Below are positions 29,957-57,788 of a DNA stretch of 64,000 nt, piece by piece. The number at the start of each line of letters is the position of its first letter. Within the stretch, counting starts at the first letter, position 1. The notes below the pieces were generated by a model. It was not told the origin of the DNA and made no database searches. It worked only from the letters and a program-made list of their open reading frames with translations. Both the position numbers and the translations under genes were made by a program. The stretch is from Maribacter sp. HTCC2170 (lineage in GTDB: Bacteria > Bacteroidota > Bacteroidia > Flavobacteriales > Flavobacteriaceae), in NCBI RefSeq assembly GCF_000153165.2, contig NC_014472.1, positions 186,001 through 250,000 on the forward strand, in the 5' to 3' direction.

Positions 29957-31039
29957 CTAAGATTGCATGATCTTCTCTTGATGATTGATTGATTCTTGGT
30001 GAATTGACTTGAACATTTTAAGCACAAACTCTTCGCTCAATCCTTTTGACTCCCCTTCCAGTATCATCGCACCTAGAATCTGGTTCCAACGATTACTCTG
30101 AAGAACTGCCACATTCTTTTCTTTTTTGAGTTTTCCTATTCCATCTGATACCTTCATTCTCTTTCCTAAGGTCTCGATTAATTGATTGTCCAAAATATCT
30201 ATCTGTGCCCTAAGGTTATCTAATTTACCCATGTATTCAGCTTCTTCATCAGACTCTTTTCTTATACGTAGATCTTTCATAATCTGAACCAATGTTTTAG
30301 GTGTTACCTGTTGGGCCGCATCACTCCAAGCATTTTCTGGGTCATGATGAGTCTCTATGATCAACCCATCAAAATTAAGGTCCAACGCAGTTTGGGATAC
30401 ATCAAAAATCATATTTCTGTTTCCAGTAATATGAGATGGATCATTGATAATTGGCAAATCAGGGAATTTGGTCTGTAATTCAATAGCCAATTGCCACTCC
30501 GGTATATTTCTATACTTTGACTTTTCATATGTAGAGAACCCCCTGTGTATAACACCTAAGTTTTTGATATTTGCGCTGTATAACCTTTCAACAGCTCCCA
30601 ACCATAAAGACAAATCAGGATTTACAGGGTTTTTAATCAAAACAGTCTTCTCGGTACCCTCTAAAGCATCAGCAATTTCCTGAACAATAAATGGGCTAAC
30701 AGTTGACCTAGCTCCAATCCACAATAAATCAATGTCATGCTCCAATGCCAATTCAACATGTGCTTTGTTAGCAACTTCTGTTGCCGTTTTCAATCCTGTC
30801 TCCTCCTTAACCTTTTGTAACCATTTAAGGCCTAAAGCCCCAACACCTTCAAAATTACCTGGACGGGTTCTTGGTTTCCAAATACCGGCACGATAATAGT
30901 TAACATCTGTATCTTTAAGTTCATGTGCAATTTTCAAGACCTGTTCTTCTGTTTCAGCACTACATGGGCCCGCAATAACCAACGGATGATCTAATCCTAA
31001 ATCATCTAACCATGTTCTCATTTTTTTTGAATTCTCCAT
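29957..31039 (-). CDS. Bifunctional DAHP synthase / chorismate mutase
   Basis: 360-residue fusion. The N-terminal part (about 1-265) is a short-type 3-deoxy-7-phosphoheptulonate synthase with AGPCSAETEEQ, YRAGIWKPRTRPGNFEG, VIHRGFSTYEK and DPSHITGNR. The C-terminal part (about 268-360, LDNLRAQIDILDNQLIETLGKRMKVSDGIGKLKKEKN) is an AroQ-type chorismate mutase. One protein thus covers the first committed step of the shikimate route and the first step of the Phe/Tyr branch; the mutase domain may mediate feedback control. Last gene of the operon behind the Phe/Tyr leader, 13 bp after tyrA and followed by a strong terminator. Confidence 0.95.
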   Translation of the reverse strand: MENSKKMRTWLDDLGLDHPLVIAGPCSAETEEQVLKIAHELKDTDVNYYRAGIWKPRTRPGNFEGVGALGLKWLQKVKEETGLKTATEVANKAHVELALEHDIDLLWIGARSTVSPFIVQEIADALEGTEKTVLIKNPVNPDLSLWLGAVERLYSANIKNLGVIHRGFSTYEKSKYRNIPEWQLAIELQTKFPDLPIINDPSHITGNRNMIFDVSQTALDLNFDGLIIETHHDPENAWSDAAQQVTPKTLVQIMKDLRIRKESDEEAEYMGKLDNLRAQIDILDNQLIETLGKRMKVSDGIGKLKKEKNVAVLQSNRWNQILGAMILEGESKGLSEEFVLKMFKSIHQESINHQEKIMQS

Positions 31040-31052
31040 TTTTAGTATACTA

Positions 31053-31910
31053 TTATTTGTTTAGTGGTATTCCTCTTAAAATTTCCTTTATTCTATTTGT
31101 ATTGTTCATTTCTTTGTAAATCCCCTCAAAATCATCTTTCAGTAAAAGCTGTCTAAAGTCTTCGAGGTTTTGAATATATTCCTCTAAAGTCTCTACTACA
31201 TTTTCCTTGTTCTGTTCAAAAATCGGTGTCCACATGGCTGGTGAACTTTTTGCTAAACGTACCGTACTTTCAAATCCCGACCCTGCCATGTCAAAAATAT
31301 CGCGCTCATTTTTCTCTTTTTCAATTACGGTCTTTCCCAACATAAATGAACTTATATGTGATAAATGCGATACATAGGCGATATGCTTGTCATGAGCCTC
31401 TGGGTTCATATACCTAATTCGCATGCCCATTTGCTGGAATAACTCTAATGCTCTTTCTTGAAGTTTGAATGCCGTTTTTTCAACCTCGCAGATGATATTG
31501 GTTTTTCCCTGGTACAAACCATCTATTGCTGCTGATGGGCCTGAAAATTCTGTTCCTGCTATTGGATGACTTGCCAAAAAATTTCTCCTTTTCGGGTGAT
31601 TTTCCAAACTTTTACAAAGGATAGCTTTTGTTGAACCAGCATCTACCACAACACAATCATCATTGACTTCTTCCAGTATTTTTGGAAGTTCAATTACCAT
31701 TGCATCGACCGGTATACTAACAATTACAATATCTGCCAAATTCAAATCATTGTAGCTTGACTTGTAATCTATTATATCCAAGTTAATAGCTTCATCTAAA
31801 TGGGTCGCACTCGAATCCACACCATAAATCTTGGTATTAGGGTTAAGCCTTTTTATGTCTTTGGCCATTGAACCGCCAATTAATCCGATACCGATTATAA
31901 ATACATTCAT
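31053..31910 (-). CDS. tyrA: Prephenate dehydrogenase
   Basis: 285 residues. The NAD(P)-binding Rossmann loop is GIGLIGGSMA at the N-terminus; the substrate region includes SHPIAGTEFSGP and HDKHIAYVSHLSHISS. It converts prephenate to 4-hydroxyphenylpyruvate on the way to tyrosine. No chorismate mutase or ACT domain is fused; the mutase is supplied by the neighbouring DAHP synthase fusion. One base separates it from the aminotransferase gene. Confidence 0.92.
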   Translation of the reverse strand: MNVFIIGIGLIGGSMAKDIKRLNPNTKIYGVDSSATHLDEAINLDIIDYKSSYNDLNLADIVIVSIPVDAMVIELPKILEEVNDDCVVVDAGSTKAILCKSLENHPKRRNFLASHPIAGTEFSGPSAAIDGLYQGKTNIICEVEKTAFKLQERALELFQQMGMRIRYMNPEAHDKHIAYVSHLSHISSFMLGKTVIEKEKNERDIFDMAGSGFESTVRLAKSSPAMWTPIFEQNKENVVETLEEYIQNLEDFRQLLLKDDFEGIYKEMNNTNRIKEILRGIPLNK

Positions 31911-31911
31911 C

Positions 31912-33057
31912 TTAAAACCTTTCTAATGCTTCTTTTATTTTTTCCAATTTCACGCAGAGCGAAAATCGAATATACCCTTCTCCGTTGCTTCCAAATATTG
32001 TGCCTGGAGCAATGAAAATATTTTTATCGTATAAAACGCTATCTACAAACTCCTCTGAGGAAACGGATCCTTTGGGTAATTTCGCCCAAACAAACATCCC
32101 CACCGCATTTTTATCATAAGAGCAATTGAGTTTATCAACCAATGCAAACATCGCTTCCCTGCGTTTGGTATAAAGTTGGTCCAATGAACTAAACCAGTCT
32201 TCTCCACTTTTCAATGCAGCAACAGCTCCTTTCTGAATACCATAGAACATGCCCGAGTCCATATTGCTTTTCACCTTCAAAATAGCGTTGATGTGTGCTT
32301 TATTCCCAAGTACCATACCAACACGCCAGCCTGCCATATTAAAGGTTTTACTTAAGGAATTAAGCTCTAAAGTCACCTCTTTTGCTCCTTCAATACTTAA
32401 AATACTAATGGGGTTTTTACTTAAGACAAAACTGTAAGGGTTGTCATTTACCAAAAGGATGTTGTTCTTCTTAGCGAACTGAACTAAACTCAATAATTGG
32501 TCCTTAGTAGCAGTAGCTCCTGTTGGCATATGCGGGTAACTAACCCACATGATTTTAACCTTGTTTAAATCTTGCTTTTGTAAATCATCCAAATTGGGAA
32601 ACCAACCAGATTCCTCTGTAAGATTATACAGTCTTGGAACTCCCCCAACCAGTTTTGTAACTGAAGTATAGGTAGGGTATCCTGGATTCGGAATTAATAC
32701 TTCATCGCCTTCATTTAAAAAGGCCATACTAATATGCATAATCCCCTCTTTTGATCCCATTAAAGGCAAAATCTCTGCATTTTCATCCGCAACCACATCG
32801 AATTTATCTTTATAAAAATCCGAAATGGCCTTACGTAATTGAGGTAAACCTTGATAACTTTGGTATTGATGTGCCCCTGCTTCTGTTATTGATTGTTGAA
32901 TAGAAGTAATCACCTCCTCCGACGGCGCCAAATCTGGGCTACCGATACCCATATTTATTATTGGTTTTCCTTCAGTAATTAGTCCACGAACTTCCCTCAA
33001 CTTTTTTGAGAAGTAATATTCTTCAACTGTCCTTAATCTTTCGGCTGTCTGAATCAT
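31912..33057 (-). CDS. Class I/II PLP aminotransferase, probably aromatic
   Basis: 381 residues. PLP lysine in SLSKTFNMAGWRVGM; NPGYPTY, SYPHMPTGA and NDNPYSF motifs of fold-type I aminotransferases. Its place between pheA and tyrA suggests it transaminates phenylpyruvate and 4-hydroxyphenylpyruvate (or prephenate) as the last step of Phe/Tyr synthesis. By sequence alone aspartate or LL-DAP aminotransferase activity would also be possible. Overlaps pheA by 4 bp (ATGA). Confidence 0.88.
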   Translation of the reverse strand: MIQTAERLRTVEEYYFSKKLREVRGLITEGKPIINMGIGSPDLAPSEEVITSIQQSITEAGAHQYQSYQGLPQLRKAISDFYKDKFDVVADENAEILPLMGSKEGIMHISMAFLNEGDEVLIPNPGYPTYTSVTKLVGGVPRLYNLTEESGWFPNLDDLQKQDLNKVKIMWVSYPHMPTGATATKDQLLSLVQFAKKNNILLVNDNPYSFVLSKNPISILSIEGAKEVTLELNSLSKTFNMAGWRVGMVLGNKAHINAILKVKSNMDSGMFYGIQKGAVAALKSGEDWFSSLDQLYTKRREAMFALVDKLNCSYDKNAVGMFVWAKLPKGSVSSEEFVDSVLYDKNIFIAPGTIFGSNGEGYIRFSLCVKLEKIKEALERF

Positions 33058-33881
33058 ATTCTCGCATTTTTATACTCTCCCAAAACCCTGAAATTCTCTG
33101 ACATTATTTCCAAAAGTGATTTGGCCTTGGCAAAATTATCATATTCATCAAAAGTAACATCGACAAAAAAGGCGTATTTCCAAGGGGTTTCAATAATCGG
33201 TAACGACTGGATCTTGGTCAAATTGAGGCTACAATCACTCATCACATTCAACACAGTTGCCAAACTTCCCCTTTTGTGGTCAGTAACAAAACGTAAAGAC
33301 GCTTTGTTGATCTCACTTTTAGGCCATTCCTTATTCTTGGTCTTTACTATGATGAACCTAGTTGAATTGTTTTTAATCGTCTGTATTCCAGGAGCGATAA
33401 TCTCCAAATCATATAGGTCGGCAGCCACACTTGGAGCGATTGCTGCAATTCCCTTTAATTGTTTATCGTGGATTTGTTTCGCAGTTTCTGCCGTATCCAC
33501 GTCCTCAACCATTTTTATATGAGGGTTTGTCTTCAAAAACTCCCGACATTGCAAAAGCGCCATAGGGTGCGACCTTACTTCTGTGATTTCATTTATAGAC
33601 TGCCCTTCGAGGGCCATTAAATTGTGATGTATGTTCAAATAATGCTCCCCAATAATATGTAATTTCTTATCGTCTATCAATGCGTAATTAGGAATAATTG
33701 AACCTGCAATGGAGTTCTCTATTGCCATTACCCCTTTATCCGCTGTTGAATCAACCAAACAATCTACCAAACCATGAAAAGACATACATTCAACCAAATC
33801 AATATCCTTATCAAAATATTCCTTTGTTACTTGATGATGGTTTGAACCTTTTATTCCCTGTATGGCTATTTTTAAACTCAT
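33054..33881 (-). CDS. pheA: Prephenate dehydratase
   Basis: 275 residues, dehydratase domain plus C-terminal ACT regulatory domain, no chorismate mutase. The catalytic TRF is in NSTRFIIVKTKN; IAIQGIKGSNHHQV replaces the more usual GxxGSY start. The ACT region GSLATVLNVMSDCSLNLTKIQSLPI has QSLP in place of the common ESRP phenylalanine-binding motif, so feedback binding may differ. First gene of a four-gene Phe/Tyr operon, preceded by a leader peptide and attenuator at 33921-34043. Confidence 0.94.
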   Translation of the reverse strand: MSLKIAIQGIKGSNHHQVTKEYFDKDIDLVECMSFHGLVDCLVDSTADKGVMAIENSIAGSIIPNYALIDDKKLHIIGEHYLNIHHNLMALEGQSINEITEVRSHPMALLQCREFLKTNPHIKMVEDVDTAETAKQIHDKQLKGIAAIAPSVAADLYDLEIIAPGIQTIKNNSTRFIIVKTKNKEWPKSEINKASLRFVTDHKRGSLATVLNVMSDCSLNLTKIQSLPIIETPWKYAFFVDVTFDEYDNFAKAKSLLEIMSENFRVLGEYKNARI

Positions 33882-33920
33882 GATCTCTTATTATCCTAAA
33901 TACTCCAGCTTTTTTTAACA

Positions 33921-33946
33921 AAAAAAGTCCCGTTTTTCACGGGACT
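33921..33946 (-). terminator. Attenuator terminator of the pheA operon
   Basis: On the minus strand AGTCCCGT (33946-33939), loop GAAAA, ACGGGACT (33933-33926), then a T-run. It lies 26 bases after the leader-peptide stop and about 40 bases before pheA ATG. A second copy of ACGGGACT at 33986-33979, inside the leader-peptide coding sequence, can pair with the same AGTCCCGT and so form the competing antiterminator. Confidence 0.88.
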
Positions 33947-33971
33947 CAATGTTATATTTTTTTACAATACA

Positions 33972-34043
33972 CTACAACAGTCCCGTTTCTCTCTTAAAAA
34001 AGAAGAAAAAATAAAAACCATTATAGAAATACTGCTTACTCAT
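33972..34043 (-). CDS. Phe/Tyr-rich leader peptide of the pheA operon
   Basis: Short open frame of 23 codons starting ATG AGT AAG CAG at 34043 and ending TAG at 33972. Residues 5-16 contain ten aromatic residues out of twelve: Tyr at 5, 7 and 11; Phe at 6, 10 and 12-16, giving five consecutive Phe codons. It precedes the operon for Phe and Tyr synthesis and a terminator with an alternative antiterminator arm, the same architecture as E. coli pheL. Ribosome stalling on the Phe run would expose the ACGGGACT segment at codons 20-22 and prevent termination. No strong Shine-Dalgarno sequence is seen and the promoter was not resolved. Confidence 0.88.
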   Translation of the reverse strand: MSKQYFYNGFYFFFFFKRETGLL

Positions 34044-34082
34044 CTTATTGTCAAATCTTTGGCTAAGGTAATTATTAAATTT

Positions 34083-34169: not shown

Positions 34170-35264
34170 TTAAGAATCACAAATTATCTGGTCGATAGAT
34201 TCATCCAATTCTTTCTGGATTCTGGGATTAGTACAGTTCGCTAAAATTGAGAGTACAATTTGTTCGTTAGGGTAAACAAACAAATTTGAATACCCCCCAA
34301 CTCCGTTTCCTATGTGACCAAAATAACGTCTTCCCTTACTATCCTCACTTACCTGCCAACCTAAACCATAATAAGTAGGTTTACCATTAACTATTTGAGA
34401 TGTAAGAAATTCAGAAATAACGTCGTTATCGCGAATTTCATTGTCTAAATAGAACTGCCCAAATTTGGCAATATCCTCGGAAGTGGAAACATAACCCCCA
34501 CCCGCTAATTTATAATCATTATTGACCGGAATGGCTTTTCGAAAACCCAATCTACTTTTTGAGTAAAATGATGATAGATATCGAACTCCTTGTTCTAAGG
34601 TCTCGAACCCACTCAACCAGACAGCCTCACTGAATGTATTCGATAAGCCCAAAGGAATCAATACTTTTTCCCGGACATATTCTTCAAATGAAACACCACT
34701 GACTTCTTGCATCGCCAAGGAAATCAACACCCAATCAAAGCTATTGTAATGATAATCACTACCTGGCTTAAAAAGCAAATCATCGTCCTTGAATATTTCA
34801 AGACTATCCTTAATTGAATAGAGCTTGTTCAATCCATATTCTTTACCCTTGTACCCTCTGATTCCTGCGGTATGACCTGCTAATTGACGAATGGTAAAAT
34901 CATATTCCTTCTTTGGAAAAAACGGAACATAATTATACAAAGAGGCATCCAGGTCTATGACTCCATCTTTTACCATATGAGCAAGGGCTGTGGCGGCAAT
35001 ATTCTTTGAGACACTTGCGATACGAAATATTGTTCTCTGCGGGTCAACAACTATTTTCTCCTCCAAATCGGCATATCCATATCCTTTTTGAAAAATGGTT
35101 TTACCTTCTTTCAAAACAGTAATTGCCAACCCTGGAATTCTCTTTTCTTCTATTAATGAATTCAATAAATCATCTGCTTTGGCCAATCCCTTAGAATTTG
35201 GATACAGGCTTTCATTACTCTCAGATGAAAATAGATTATTCAAATATGTCAAAATCGATTTCAA
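34170..35264 (-). CDS. Serine hydrolase of the beta-lactamase / class C family
   Basis: Up to 364 residues. Active-site SxxK is S84-V-S-K87; the Tyr motif is in YHYNSFDW; the third motif is GHIGNGVGGYSN near the C-terminus, corresponding to the KTG/HxG position. Members include esterases, D-aminopeptidases and PBP-like enzymes; the substrate is unknown. The start is uncertain: no ATG is available, the frame can begin at TTG 35264 or TTG 35252, and no clear signal peptide is encoded although most relatives are exported. The frame stays open further upstream with a hydrophobic stretch (KLYSYLLFLIKS) but no start codon. Confidence 0.8.
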   Translation of the reverse strand: MKSILTYLNNLFSSESNESLYPNSKGLAKADDLLNSLIEEKRIPGLAITVLKEGKTIFQKGYGYADLEEKIVVDPQRTIFRIASVSKNIAATALAHMVKDGVIDLDASLYNYVPFFPKKEYDFTIRQLAGHTAGIRGYKGKEYGLNKLYSIKDSLEIFKDDDLLFKPGSDYHYNSFDWVLISLAMQEVSGVSFEEYVREKVLIPLGLSNTFSEAVWLSGFETLEQGVRYLSSFYSKSRLGFRKAIPVNNDYKLAGGGYVSTSEDIAKFGQFYLDNEIRDNDVISEFLTSQIVNGKPTYYGLGWQVSEDSKGRRYFGHIGNGVGGYSNLFVYPNEQIVLSILANCTNPRIQKELDESIDQIICDS

Positions 35265-42478: not shown

Positions 42479-42538
42479 GGTTTAAAACTGTTAAAAAATG
42501 TATCAAGATTGGATGAAAGAAAGACCTTCTTTTTCTCT

Positions 42539-42640
42539 GTTATCTTTCACGCCATAGGCGTAATAGAATGTAGCACCTACTTTAAAGTAAAGGGTTGCCA
42601 AGGTTTCATTGGGTCTAGTCCCTCCGCCTTTCTTGATAAC
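42539..42640 (-). promoter_or_regulatory. SAM-I (S-box) riboswitch ahead of metH1
   Basis: The minus strand shows the S-box core in order: P1 GTTATC, CAAGAAAGGCGGAGGGAC (kink-turn and conserved GGA), ATGAAACC, GGCAACC, AGGTGCTA, and closing P1 GATAAC. All highly conserved segments of the class are present and correctly spaced. It sits in a 297-bp gap between cysG-like and metH1, about 100 nt before the metH1 ATG. By class behaviour SAM binding would reduce expression of metH1-metH2-metF. A small open frame covering this stretch is not a gene. Confidence 0.95.
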
Positions 42641-42668
42641 GGTTTCAGTATTGTTTATGAACTGGTTG

Positions 42669-51317: not shown

Positions 51318-54300
51318 CTATCCTTTTTCAGCAATACGAAGAATATCCCCAAAAACACCTCTTGCCGTAACAGCCGCACCTGCTCCTGCACCTTGAATTA
51401 CCAATGGGTGCTCACCATATGACTCAGTATAAATTTCTATAATTGAATCTGAACCTTTTACTTGACCCAGAGCACTTTCTTTTGGCACCGAAATCAATTT
51501 TACATCCAATTTACCTTTCTCTTTTCTAAGATCACCATGCAAATCACCCACATATCGCAATACATGACCAGGTTTTTGGTTCTTTTTTAATTGATTGAAC
51601 TTTTCGTCCAACACTTCTAAATTACCCATAAATTCGTCCACAGTGACATCTTGAAGTATCGTTGGAATCAAATTCTGAATTTTAATATCGAAAAACTCAT
51701 TACTTAATTCCAACTCCCTTGCCAAGATCAATAATTTACGACCGACATCATTCCCTGATAAATCCTCCCTAGGATCGGGCTCGGTAAACCCTTTATTCAT
51801 AGCATCCTTAAGAATCGCTGAAAAAGAAGTGTTGACCTCAGAGAACGTATTAAATATATAGCTTAAAGACCCTGAAAACACACCTTTGATCCTCGTAATA
51901 TTCTCTCCGGACAAATGAAGTAATTTTATTGTATCTATAAGTGGCAACCCCGCCCCAACATTAGTTTCATAGAGGTATTGTTTTTGGTTTTTGACTAATT
52001 CATCCCTCAACAATTGATAATAATCAAAACCTAAAGTGTTGGCTATCTTATTGGATGAGACCAAATCAAACCCATTTTCAACAAACTCAAAATAGTTGGC
52101 AACAAACTCTTCGCTCGCCGTATTATCAACAGCTATCAAATTTTCAAAATGATGTTTCTTGGCATATGCAAAAACATCTGTCAATTCATAAGCAACACCT
52201 TTTTCCTTTATTGTTTTTTTCCAGTTTTTTGGAATTCCTTTTTCATTGAATAGTACTTTCTTAGAATTTGCCACTGCAAAAACGTTTAAATCTATTCCTT
52301 TACGTTTTTCAATTGTCTTAGCCGATTTCAAGATTTGATCAACCAATGTACCGCCTACATTGCCGTGCCCAAAAATTACAACATTGACTTTTTTACTTAT
52401 GCCGAAAATCTGACCGTGCATTACATTCAAAGCCTTGTGCAAATCTGATTTATTGACCACCAAACTCACGTTCTTTCCTGTAACCGTATTATTGAAAAGC
52501 AAGGGAACAATCTGATTTTGGATCAATGAATTATAGGGTTTATGGAAAGTACTTAAATCCTGACCCACAATTGAAATTACCGATACATCATCGACCACAG
52601 TTATCCTATTGATATCCTTTGATTGAAAATCATGGGCAAATTCCCTTTGGAGTGCGATTTTTGCCTTTTGCGCACTATCTGCATTAACCACCAACCCTAT
52701 TCCTCGTTCAGAAGAACCTTGCGAAATAATGCTAACACTTATATTGTTATCGCCCAAGGACCTGAATATTCGAGCGTCAATTCCCACCTTTCCTAGGAGT
52801 CCACGACCTTCCAAATTGATCAATGCAACATCCTCTATAACAGATAAGGACTTTATACCTTCTTTATTCGTTTTAGCACTGATTAGAGTTCCCTCATTAT
52901 CACTTTTAAATGTATTTAATATTCGCAGGGGAATATTTTTTTCAATCAGTGGAATAATTGTTTTTGCATGAAGTATAGTTGCACCAAAATTAGCTAGCTC
53001 GTTCGCTTCGCTGTATGAAAGTTCTGATATTCGTTTCGCCTCAGCAACATAATCAGGATTAGCAGTAAATATACCATCTACGTGCGTATAATTTTGAAGC
53101 TCCTCAGCATCAAGGTAGTTTGCAATCATGGCAGCAGAATAATTACTTCCGTTCCTCCCCAATGTTGTGGTTTCATTTTCTAAGGTCGAAGCTATAAAAC
53201 CAGTAATCACCGGAACAGCTTCTTCGCCTAATTGGGAAAACTCGCGTAGCACATTTTCTTTTGAAACCGCCTCGATAACATGGGCATCACCAAATGTATC
53301 ATCAGTTTTAATAAGCTTTCGCGAATCCATCAATCTGGCGTTGATTCCCTTTCCTATTAAGAGTTTGGTAATTAATTTTGCCGAAATCACTTCCCCATAA
53401 GATAATACCTGGTCTCTTATTTTGGCACTATAATCCCCAAGCAAGGAAACACCTTCGAATAATTTGAACAACCCTTCAAACTCTGAAGAGAGGTTCACAT
53501 TTTTAAATGTATGTGTTTGATAGCTCTCGAACTTCTCAAAATCCTTTGAGTAATCTTTTCCTTCAGCAGCTTTTTCCAGTATCGCCTCTAATTGATCAGT
53601 AGCTTTTTCCCTCGCCGATAAAACCACTGCAATATTCTCACCTTTCTTAACCTTGTTGGTTATAATGTTCAACACATGACCTAACCCCTCTCCATTGCTA
53701 AGCGATTTTCCGCCAAACTTCAAGACTTTTATTCCTTGAGTTTTTCCATTGGTATTAAAAATACCGTTGAGCAGCTTTTGCATTTGTTCAAACTCAATTA
53801 AAAATGCATCATGCCCATGAAGCGATTGCACCTCACCATAGGTAACATTACTTTTCGCCTGTGCCAACTGCTTAAAGGTTTCTTTATTTTCCTTGGCCGT
53901 AAAAAAGAGATCAGAATCTACACCTACGATATGGATATTGGTATTACTATTTTGAAGATTAACAAAGGCTGATTCCCCATTTCGTGTAATGTCAATAGTT
54001 TTCAATAATTGGTTCATTAATTTATAAGCCGAAACTTGAAAACGATCCTTCAATTTCTCGCCATGGTGCATTAACCAACTTTCAACATTGAATACTTGTA
54101 GTTCTTCATTCGTACTCCTTTTGAATCGCTCTTTAAAAGACTCTGGAGTGCGATAGCACAACATGGCATGCATACGCGCATCGTGAACAGGTTGTTTAGA
54201 ATTTACCAAAAACTGCTCCTGAATTTGACAATTGGCAATCAACCAATCTGTAGATTTCCAATCAGATGCAACAGGAATCAAATGAGTCGTCAAATTTGGA

Positions 54301-54704
54301 TTCAAGGCTGCCATTTCCCAAGCAATACCACCTCCCAGTGAGCCTCCTATCATGGCAAAAAGTTTATCAATTTTCAACTCCTTAAGACCCAATAAAAAAA
54401 TCCTAGCAACATCTCCTGCAACAAAATCCTTGTAATTTTCAATTACAAATCCGTCATAGCCATTCCCAGGAATATTAAAGGCCATAATTGTATATTTATT
54501 GGTATCTATACACTTGCCCTCTCCAATTAGGGCAGACCACCATCCTTCAGGCCCTGTTACATTTGAGTTTCCCGTCAAAGCATGATTAACCAATATTATC
54601 GGTGCCTCATGCAAGTTTTTTCCAAAAAGTTGATACGATAGTGAGATATCCTGTTCAACCCCGCTGATGGTTTTATAATTCTTTAATTCTAATTGATGTA
54701 GCAT
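51318..54704 (-). CDS. Trifunctional fusion: homoserine O-acetyltransferase (MetX) - aspartokinase - homoserine dehydrogenase
   Basis: 1128 residues with three enzymes in one chain. Residues 1-320 are a MetX-type alpha/beta hydrolase with intact triad: Ser122 in GGSLGG, Asp265 in VDSDLFF, His298 in LHGHDAF. From residue 325 (VLKFGGKSL) follows a ThrA-like aspartokinase with ACT domains at about 640-780, then homoserine dehydrogenase from about 800 (VVIFGHGNVGGTL, ETNVGAGLPLIDT). The protein would take aspartate to aspartyl phosphate, reduce the semialdehyde to homoserine and acetylate it, missing only aspartate-semialdehyde dehydrogenase. Downstream of the SAM-I riboswitch at 56186. Confidence 0.93.
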   Translation of the reverse strand: MLHQLELKNYKTISGVEQDISLSYQLFGKNLHEAPIILVNHALTGNSNVTGPEGWWSALIGEGKCIDTNKYTIMAFNIPGNGYDGFVIENYKDFVAGDVARIFLLGLKELKIDKLFAMIGGSLGGGIAWEMAALNPNLTTHLIPVASDWKSTDWLIANCQIQEQFLVNSKQPVHDARMHAMLCYRTPESFKERFKRSTNEELQVFNVESWLMHHGEKLKDRFQVSAYKLMNQLLKTIDITRNGESAFVNLQNSNTNIHIVGVDSDLFFTAKENKETFKQLAQAKSNVTYGEVQSLHGHDAFLIEFEQMQKLLNGIFNTNGKTQGIKVLKFGGKSLSNGEGLGHVLNIITNKVKKGENIAVVLSAREKATDQLEAILEKAAEGKDYSKDFEKFESYQTHTFKNVNLSSEFEGLFKLFEGVSLLGDYSAKIRDQVLSYGEVISAKLITKLLIGKGINARLMDSRKLIKTDDTFGDAHVIEAVSKENVLREFSQLGEEAVPVITGFIASTLENETTTLGRNGSNYSAAMIANYLDAEELQNYTHVDGIFTANPDYVAEAKRISELSYSEANELANFGATILHAKTIIPLIEKNIPLRILNTFKSDNEGTLISAKTNKEGIKSLSVIEDVALINLEGRGLLGKVGIDARIFRSLGDNNISVSIISQGSSERGIGLVVNADSAQKAKIALQREFAHDFQSKDINRITVVDDVSVISIVGQDLSTFHKPYNSLIQNQIVPLLFNNTVTGKNVSLVVNKSDLHKALNVMHGQIFGISKKVNVVIFGHGNVGGTLVDQILKSAKTIEKRKGIDLNVFAVANSKKVLFNEKGIPKNWKKTIKEKGVAYELTDVFAYAKKHHFENLIAVDNTASEEFVANYFEFVENGFDLVSSNKIANTLGFDYYQLLRDELVKNQKQYLYETNVGAGLPLIDTIKLLHLSGENITRIKGVFSGSLSYIFNTFSEVNTSFSAILKDAMNKGFTEPDPREDLSGNDVGRKLLILARELELSNEFFDIKIQNLIPTILQDVTVDEFMGNLEVLDEKFNQLKKNQKPGHVLRYVGDLHGDLRKEKGKLDVKLISVPKESALGQVKGSDSIIEIYTESYGEHPLVIQGAGAGAAVTARGVFGDILRIAEKG

Positions 54705-56179: not shown

Positions 56180-56185
56180 CGTTTC

Positions 56186-56306
56186 GTTATCTGCCGATAT
56201 GCTGAATTAATTTCAACAGTTGGTAGAATTTAGCACCTTCTTTATTATAGAAACAAAGGGTTGCTAAGGCTTCATAGGGTCTAATCCCTCCACCTTTCTT
56301 GATAAC
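56186..56306 (-). promoter_or_regulatory. SAM-I (S-box) riboswitch ahead of O-acetylhomoserine sulfhydrylase
   Basis: The minus strand shows P1 GTTATC, CAAGAAAGGTGGAGGGA, ATGAAGCC, AGCAACC, AAGGTGCTAAATTC and closing GATAAC, the same conserved blocks as the metH1 copy. The aptamer ends 125 nt before the ATG at 56061. This is in the one intergenic gap over 300 bp (56062-56382); the remainder is AT-rich leader with one small hairpin (ATTGC/GCAAT). SAM should repress the sulfhydrylase and probably the downstream MetX-AK-HSD and MetZ-like genes. Confidence 0.95.
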
Positions 56307-56336
56307 AATTCAATATGTGTTTGAACTTTTGAACGA

Positions 56337-57693: not shown

Positions 57694-57711
57694 TACTGAT
57701 ATTTTTCAGTA
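57694..57711 (-). other. Hairpin between the SAM-II-like aptamer and metK
   Basis: TACTGA-AAAATA-TCAGTA directly after the aptamer. Its first arm (ACTG) could also pair with the CAGT pseudoknot strand, so it may belong to the expression platform. Confidence 0.5.
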
Positions 57712-57714
57712 GGT

Positions 57715-57775
57715 ACTGCTTTAGCATTTTATGAAGTTGAGAACTTCGAGGTTGCAATCAGTCAAATCTTTCCTC
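57715..57775 (-). promoter_or_regulatory. SAM-II-like riboswitch ahead of metK
   Basis: Minus-strand order: P1 5' arm GAGG, then AAAGATTTG (conserved GAUUUG loop), pseudoknot strand ACTG, ATTGCA, P1 3' arm CCTC, an inserted GAAGTT/AACTTC hairpin, then ATAAAATGCTAAAGCAGT. The conserved GCUAAA is followed by CAGT, complementary to ACTG, and GC/GC forms the inner pseudoknot pair. This matches the H-type pseudoknot of SAM-II (GAUUU, UUGCA, GCUAAA blocks). It lies 76 nt before the metK ATG, consistent with function. An additional 8-nt complement of TGATTGCA follows at 57673-57680 and could disrupt the fold. Confidence 0.8.
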
Positions 57776-57788
57776 TTGATGTCGATGG

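Follow-up and report, generated by a model that had tools for sequence, protein, structure and literature searches.

The 64-kb stretch of Maribacter sp. HTCC2170 DNA analysed here (positions 186,001 to 250,000 of contig NC_014472.1; hereafter the window) carries on its minus strand, directly before the operon pheA-aminotransferase-tyrA-DAHPS/CM (the last gene encoding a DAHP synthase-chorismate mutase fusion), a short open reading frame (ORF) rich in Phe and Tyr codons and followed by an intrinsic terminator. As judged from its sequence, this element is very probably a ribosome-mediated transcription attenuator of the operon, with charged tRNA-Phe/Tyr as the signal. The leader, three arms that form two competing helices, their covariation, the spacing between codons and arms, the content of the operon and the wide conservation of the whole arrangement are all read directly from the DNA. 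The parts of the leader locus lie as follows.

34063..34070, minus strand: probable -7 promoter box TACCTTAG, 19 nt upstream of the leader ATG
34043..33972, minus strand: leader peptide ORF MSKQYFYNGFYFFFFFKRETGLL, from ATG, 23 codons plus TAG
33996..34010, minus strand: five consecutive Phe codons (codons 12-16), the presumed stall site
33979..33986, minus strand: arm A ACGGGACT, in codons 20-22, 5' arm of the antiterminator
33939..33946, minus strand: arm B AGTCCCGT, the common segment, which pairs with A (antiterminator) or C (terminator) and not with both
33926..33933, minus strand: arm C ACGGGACT, 3' arm of the terminator
33920..33925, minus strand: run of T after arm C, the U-run of the intrinsic terminator

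The leader peptide, too short for standard gene calling, contains seven Phe and three Tyr residues, and its last Phe codon ends 9 nt before the start of arm A. Arms A and B are separated by a spacer of 32 nt, B and C by a loop of 5 nt, and C lies 44 nt from the pheA start. The ACGGGACT and AGTCCCGT octamers are mutual reverse complements, and A, B and C are their sole copies on either strand of the window. The hairpin B:C has a calculated energy of -13.2 kcal/mol, against -11.1 kcal/mol for A:B; the minimum free energy fold of the whole leader includes an additional long-range helix. Runs of at least five Phe or at least six Phe/Tyr residues follow 2 of the 2,724 start codons (ATG, GTG or TTG, both strands, frames of 10-40 codons) in the window, and the leader is one of the two. 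The first-pass annotation of this DNA had reported the 23-codon frame with seven Phe and three Tyr, five of the Phe in a row, as well as the GC-rich terminator and the second copy of ACGGGACT in codons 20-22; when the coordinates were re-derived, all of these details proved exact.

The box TACCTTAG is close to the flavobacterial TAnnTTTG, a consensus quoted in the accessible part of PMC9723704, and transcription of the leader RNA would start just 5' of the leader ATG. The spacer between A and B (window 33947-33978) is A/U-rich, as it is in other leaders, and TATAAC is mildly enriched in it (present in 9 of 68 divergent leaders versus 1.6 expected), an enrichment that possibly marks a pause, or mere composition.

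The four genes of the operon stand in the order that the first-pass annotation had given, as Pfam confirms.

33054..33881, minus strand: pheA, prephenate dehydratase, the first controlled gene (PF00800, E 9.8e-58)
31912..33057, minus strand: class I/II aminotransferase (PF00155), overlapping pheA by 4 nt
31053..31910, minus strand: tyrA, prephenate dehydrogenase (PF02153/PF20463)
29957..31039, minus strand: DAHP synthase-chorismate mutase fusion (PF00793 and PF01817)

The leader follows pheA through the class Bacteroidia. PheA was searched for in 40 relatives, in genomes of the order (246), the class (296) and the phylum (148), and in titled genome contigs. This gave 259 upstream regions, drawn from 30 loci of the relatives and 30 of the order, 40 further places in the order (143 genomes matched), 60 in the class (90 matched), 20 in the phylum (128 matched) and the best 80 of 580 titled-contig candidates, one of which (L091) came without upstream DNA; loci from the genome searches were chosen by family diversity and not at random. 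The detector called an ATG frame with at least four aromatic residues in six codons and, no more than 110 nt further on, a hairpin carrying six or more G/C in its arms, together with a U-run. It found leader plus terminator in 201 of the 259 regions (duplicates kept) versus 3 of 1,295 dinucleotide shuffles of the same regions. After removal of 26 duplicate or near-identical regions, 176 of 233 carried both, and 174 of them arm A as well. In these 176 regions a predicted intrinsic terminator thus stands between the leader ORF and the first gene, as in an attenuator.

Among non-duplicate regions, leader and terminator were present in 12/12 from the genus, 111/112 from the rest of the family, 10/11 from other families of the order (families f5 and f16 apart) and 40/59 from the class outside the order. 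Titled holders, within the best 80 of 580 loci, include Zobellia, Maribacter, Arenibacter, Flagellimonas, Robiginitalea, Cellulophaga, Tenacibaculum, Winogradskyella and many Flavobacterium. In other classes, the leader was found in all three regions with a Bacteroidia-type PheA (L223, L224 and L225; genomes G653, G563 and G603) and in 0/17 with a different PheA; because it tracks PheA type outside the class in this way, the pheA operon may have moved to other classes together with its leader. Genomes of f5 had the element in 0/11 regions with a different PheA and in 0/1 with the usual type. In very small genomes (0.3-0.6 Mb; f16, L162-L168) PheA is kept and the element was detected in 0/7; at one of these loci, L163, a short aromatic frame, MKFINFYFFIEKKI, stands with no terminator behind it and may be a remnant. 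At three loci of family f30 (L189, L190 and L247) pheA apparently follows close behind another reading frame, so any leader there would have to sit further upstream.

This distribution bears on the simplest alternative, in which the hairpin is the ordinary 3' terminator of the gene upstream and the aromatic ORF has arisen by chance. That neighbour, a beta-lactamase-like gene, ends at 34170, also on the minus strand, and the hairpin could indeed stop its transcript too. A terminator serving only the upstream gene, however, would not keep the aromatic codons and arm A, and a homolog of the neighbour was present in the fetched DNA at 19 of 137 long loci with the leader (duplicates kept), whereas the leader tracks pheA across the class and persists next to other upstream genes. 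Conservation with pheA and not with the neighbour argues against this as a full explanation; it was rejected, and we give it practically no credence.

The aromatic tract behaves as codons. A set of 70 divergent leaders was taken by a greedy cut at 0.75 similarity (it was compiled before a boundary correction at locus L058), and in each the last aromatic codon was scored together with as many as eight codons before it, 630 codons in all. T occupies position 1 in 82% of them, T or A position 2 in 86%, and a pyrimidine (T or C) position 3 in 91%; 291 codons encode Phe and 192 Tyr (483/630), 17 Trp and 9 Leu. Over their whole length the leaders are 34% Phe plus Tyr, so that each is a short ORF rich, in frame, in codons for the products of the operon. 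Because the leaders had been selected for aromatic density, part of this richness comes from the choice itself, which does not hold for the codon-position pattern or for the occurrence of terminator and arm A together. Matches to the loose pattern set for a promoter box (60 nt upstream, at varying distance, with no shuffled control) occur in 55 of the 70.

Such a frame-specific pattern makes a plain U-tract unlikely, since a U-tract would show no such frame. The corresponding alternative is an RNA that senses a ligand or a protein (a riboswitch, or the target of a U-tract-binding protein), its T-rich tract never being read as codons; the U-rich tract, the A/U-rich spacer and the weak TATAAC excess would suit it. 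Yet the codon signal is strong, and an Rfam scan matched no family at its cut-off at the pheA leader. On these two results the untranslated reading was rejected, and we regard it as extremely unlikely. Another alternative accepts translation and replaces tRNA shortage by nascent-peptide arrest of the TnaC kind, the peptide together with free Phe/Tyr or another ligand stalling the ribosome. A similar architecture would be expected in that case, and a peptide of similar size is conserved. An arrest peptide normally requires fixed residues, however, whereas the 70 divergent leaders keep aromatic richness and no specific sequence: Phe and Tyr interchange, their positions shift, and the peptide is otherwise rather free. 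Arrest was rejected on this account and is very unlikely.

Both Phe and Tyr occur in 70/70 of the divergent leaders and Trp in 31/70, and for this reason the attenuator probably senses Phe and Tyr, perhaps all aromatic amino acids, rather than Phe alone. The earlier proposal of Phe sensing, with Tyr as a possible addition, therefore stands as regards aromatic sensing and falls short in its emphasis on Phe, Tyr being as regular a constituent.

The arms are kept as pairs. In an alignment of 31 related leaders (A2), standard pairs make up 99.2% of the cells of helix B:C, with both sides changed in 4 pairs (22 cells), and 90.7% of those of helix A:B, with both sides changed in 4 pairs (7 cells), while registers slid along the arms reach at most 52.4%. 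Two covariation scores were reached by none of 500 shuffles. In the 70 divergent leaders each arm A fits its own arm B better than that of another leader: the mean score is 17.26 for own pairs and 10.25 +/- 0.60 for swapped pairs, with none of 10,000 permutations as high. The same holds within family f1 (n=29; 17.66 versus 11.55 +/- 0.90) and outside the order (n=36; 16.69 versus 10.49 +/- 0.85), again with 0/10,000 in each. Arm A and the terminator thus compete for arm B, which provides the mutually exclusive antiterminator helix of an attenuator, and of these helices the terminator has the greater stability in 65/68 leaders (median -14.2 versus -7.8 kcal/mol). Aligning relatives and looking for aromatic runs with covarying arms was the check that the first-pass annotation had suggested within Flavobacteriaceae; it has now been passed well beyond that family.

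In the trp and pheL scheme, pairing between segments 1 and 2 protects the terminator as long as the leader goes untranslated. No conserved protector or pause hairpin (1:2) was found here: pairing of A with the upstream part of the leader is only slightly stronger than after shuffling (median -7.6 compared with -6.9 kcal/mol, mean z -0.5). It equals A:B in strength in 7/68 leaders, and a weak or lineage-specific protector helix may be conceivable. Besides A:B and B:C no conserved structure was noticed, though no systematic search was made. As no conserved segment was found to sequester A, read-through would be expected when the leader goes untranslated, in contrast to the classical trp/pheL design, or when the ribosome stalls at any point upstream of A.

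The distance between codons and arms is more constant than either the peptide or its end. The median gap from the last aromatic codon to the beginning of arm A is 10 nt, and the gap measures 7-12 nt in 54/68 divergent leaders, compared with 12.3% in shuffled sequences (binomial p about 1e-36, an overstated value, as the lineages are not independent); among non-duplicate leaders, 157/174 fall within the same limits. The stop codon, by comparison, drifts over 40 nt and may lie as far as 31 nt downstream or 9 nt upstream of the start of A. The distance from stop codon to arm B is held (median 28 nt), and a finishing ribosome should therefore not block the terminator. With an assumed ribosome footprint of -18..+12 (some 12 nt, counted from the base that opens the A-site codon), a ribosome modelled as halted at the last aromatic codon spares the whole of A in 43/68 and 70% of it or more in 61/68, while a modelled terminating ribosome covers all of A in 49/68 and at least half in 59/68. 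On this E. coli footprint, stalled and finishing ribosomes would free different segments, as attenuation demands. A fixed spacing between the last aromatic codon and A combined with a drifting stop codon is, in the leaders compared, what the footprint of a stalled ribosome would lead one to expect, and it is not predicted by the rival explanations.

One further possibility grants a real attenuator and questions its signal: the leader might sense a general slowing of translation, under any starvation or antibiotic, any stall upstream of A being enough to free A. Since no conserved protector helix was found, the position of a stall upstream of A should indeed matter little, and the leaders also hold Lys, Arg, Asn, Gly and similar codons. 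Against this stand the share of Phe and Tyr among the leader residues, a spacing tied to the last aromatic codon, and an operon that makes Phe and Tyr. We consider a general sensor unlikely, although less so than the alternatives above.

Several observations weigh against an aromatic-specific attenuator of this design, or against its generality. The element went undetected in 19 of the 59 class regions, at one locus of the family (L017) and at one of the order (L027); by eye, three of the 19 (L194, L250 and L252) do have an aromatic leader and matching arms, although in two of them the terminator stem is imperfect and one seems to start with GTG. Two loci, L087 and L262, have leader and terminator and lack arm A by the search rule, and arm A was sought solely downstream of the last aromatic codon, a limit that applied equally to the shuffled control. 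In the alignment of 31 leaders, the count of further pair types was at least as high in 38/500 shuffles for A:B and in 489/500 for B:C, and the outermost A:B pair is unpaired in 15/31 relatives, which reduces the antiterminator core to 6-7 bp. The footprint model fails at both ends in a few cases, the ribosome at the last aromatic codon covering half of A or more in 4/68 and the terminating ribosome leaving A fully uncovered in 4/68; moreover, the size of that footprint is knowledge from E. coli applied to leaders of Bacteroidota.

With these points taken into account, we infer translation of the leader, stalling, termination or read-through and a response to Phe/Tyr as follows. The leader RNA would be made from the promoter just upstream of the leader ATG. 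When charged tRNA-Phe or tRNA-Tyr is short, the ribosome would stall within the aromatic block, its 3' edge halting at or just before A; A:B could then form, leaving C single-stranded, and RNA polymerase would continue into pheA and the three genes behind it. When aromatic amino acids are ample, the ribosome would reach the stop codon and mask A, so that B:C forms and transcription ends at the U-run.

A broader reading can be put forward tentatively, and we hold it to be somewhat less probable than its opposite: that this is an ancient, Bacteroidia-wide, three-segment device that works as a ruler for the ribosome footprint. All that is held would be the spacing of A from the last aromatic codon (about 10 nt) and of B from the stop codon (about 28 nt), while the peptide, the sequence of the arms and the position of the stop codon drift. 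Its default state would be ON, it would serve as a general, joint gauge of Phe, Tyr and (in the 31/70) Trp for an operon with a DAHP synthase of its own, and it would travel with that operon into other classes. The phylum gains a clearly dissectable amino-acid attenuator, whose 176 non-duplicate natural versions allow the footprint ruler behind attenuation to be read directly from evolution. Ribosomes of Bacteroidota do not rely on Shine-Dalgarno pairing, and a reporter placed on this leader makes the tightness of transcription-translation coupling in the phylum directly testable.

The same genome has other leaders of the kind. The sole match to RF01692 (Bacteroid-trp) in the genome, L222 at C1:43940-44056 (75.4 bits), consists of a leader MKNRTNNTWWWSNLRKTS and then a terminator, and lies upstream of a trpE-like frame (the gene name coming from reading the frame, with no search). 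Its GTCGTGA at the stop codon pairs, by eye, with the terminator loop and the start of the 3' arm, a layout that differs from that of the pheA leader. At the hisG locus (L221; C1 near 2747190) a His leader candidate MRNQNTHHHFYTCSQAR stands before a strong terminator, and the 5' arm of this hairpin can, by inspection, pair with the end of the leader; no Rfam family reached its cut-off there. At the ilvD locus (L263; C1 near 3042083) a branched-chain leader candidate MKLRNNLVNIILIVPALG precedes a 14-bp terminator, roughly 200 nt before ilvD, and an arm overlapping its stop codon can, again by inspection, pair with the terminator 5' arm. No Thr leader was found when the 600 nt upstream of the L264 homoserine dehydrogenase match were examined, a negative of little weight, as this stretch falls within a long reading frame. 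Attenuation seems to be a common way of controlling amino-acid operons in the genome of this Maribacter.

The window also holds, within about 15 kb, three riboswitches on the minus strand. Two belong to SAM-I (S box) and one to SAM-II (long loop), so that a single ligand is served here by neighbouring riboswitches of two classes. They lie at 42537-42642, 56184-56308 and 57711-57781 and precede, respectively, a homocysteine S-methyltransferase frame, a Cys/Met PLP-enzyme (pyridoxal-phosphate enzyme) frame and S-adenosylmethionine synthetase. One gene downstream of the PLP-enzyme frame, at 51318-54704 on the minus strand, is a gene for a 1128-aa three-part fusion made up of an N-terminal alpha/beta hydrolase, an amino-acid kinase with an ACT domain and a C-terminal homoserine dehydrogenase.

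Among the closest known counterparts of the pheA leader is enterobacterial pheL/pheA (RF01859, Phe_leader), in which a Phe-rich leader peptide precedes an intrinsic terminator and the ribosome sets the alternative pairing. The likeness extends to the Phe-rich leader before pheA, the terminator and the alternative pairing. Unlike in pheL, arm A here lies at or near the leader stop codon and pairs directly with the 5' arm of the terminator, with no conserved protector found; Tyr codons (in 31/70 also Trp codons) are mixed in with those for Phe, and the operon also includes tyrA and DAHPS/CM. The covariance model of RF01859 scored 23.2 bits on a 331-nt query, below its cut-off of 55 (E 0.097). 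This score and the failure to find a conserved protector led us to reject a four-segment copy of pheL. What had been called pheL-type attenuation is therefore borne out as leader-peptide attenuation and gives way, in its detail, to a scheme of three competing segments.

Within the phylum, a close counterpart in Rfam is RF01692, named there 'Bacteroidete tryptophan peptide leader RNA' and present as a table row in the accessible part of Weinberg et al. 2010 (PMC2864571). It shares phylum and genome with the pheA leader, and a leader followed by a terminator; it differs in its Trp codons and in that its stop-codon arm pairs (by eye) with the loop and 3' arm of the terminator and not with the 5' arm, and it gave no match at the pheA leader at its cut-off of 49 bits. 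The transcriptome of F. psychrophilum provided strong clues for leader-peptide attenuation before amino-acid operons, and 5' elements of its pheA and hisG, without Rfam matches, occur in other genera of Flavobacteriaceae, according to the accessible part of PMC9723704. Its pheA element is very probably the one described here; in that part of the paper no peptide, arms, spacing or spread beyond the family is given. In B. thetaiotaomicron, small ORFs reminiscent of leader peptides are mentioned in the accessible part of PMC7366714. The view that such attenuators are far less documented in Bacteroidota thus needs tempering, as they are documented to some degree, by RF01692 and by the F. psychrophilum element.

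Among the literature matches listed, which left subscription papers outside their scope, there was no dedicated description of a pheA leader peptide from Bacteroidota, PMC9723704 being the nearest. The existence of the pheA element is therefore half announced before, while the peptide, the three arms, the ruler, the absent protector, the spread through the class and the lack of the element in small genomes do not appear in the accessible parts of the papers found. Beyond the phylum, the Corynebacterium ilvB uORF (upstream ORF) motif (PMC11109978) and Listeria Rli60 (PMC5864092), as far as the accessible parts of these papers go, resemble the pheA leader in having a leader rich in the product amino acids and an antiterminator set against a terminator, and Rli60 is a reporter-tested ribosome-mediated attenuator. 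Both differ from it in responding to branched-chain amino acids and in belonging to other phyla, and Rli60 is built from four segments, whereas the pheA leader appears to work with three.
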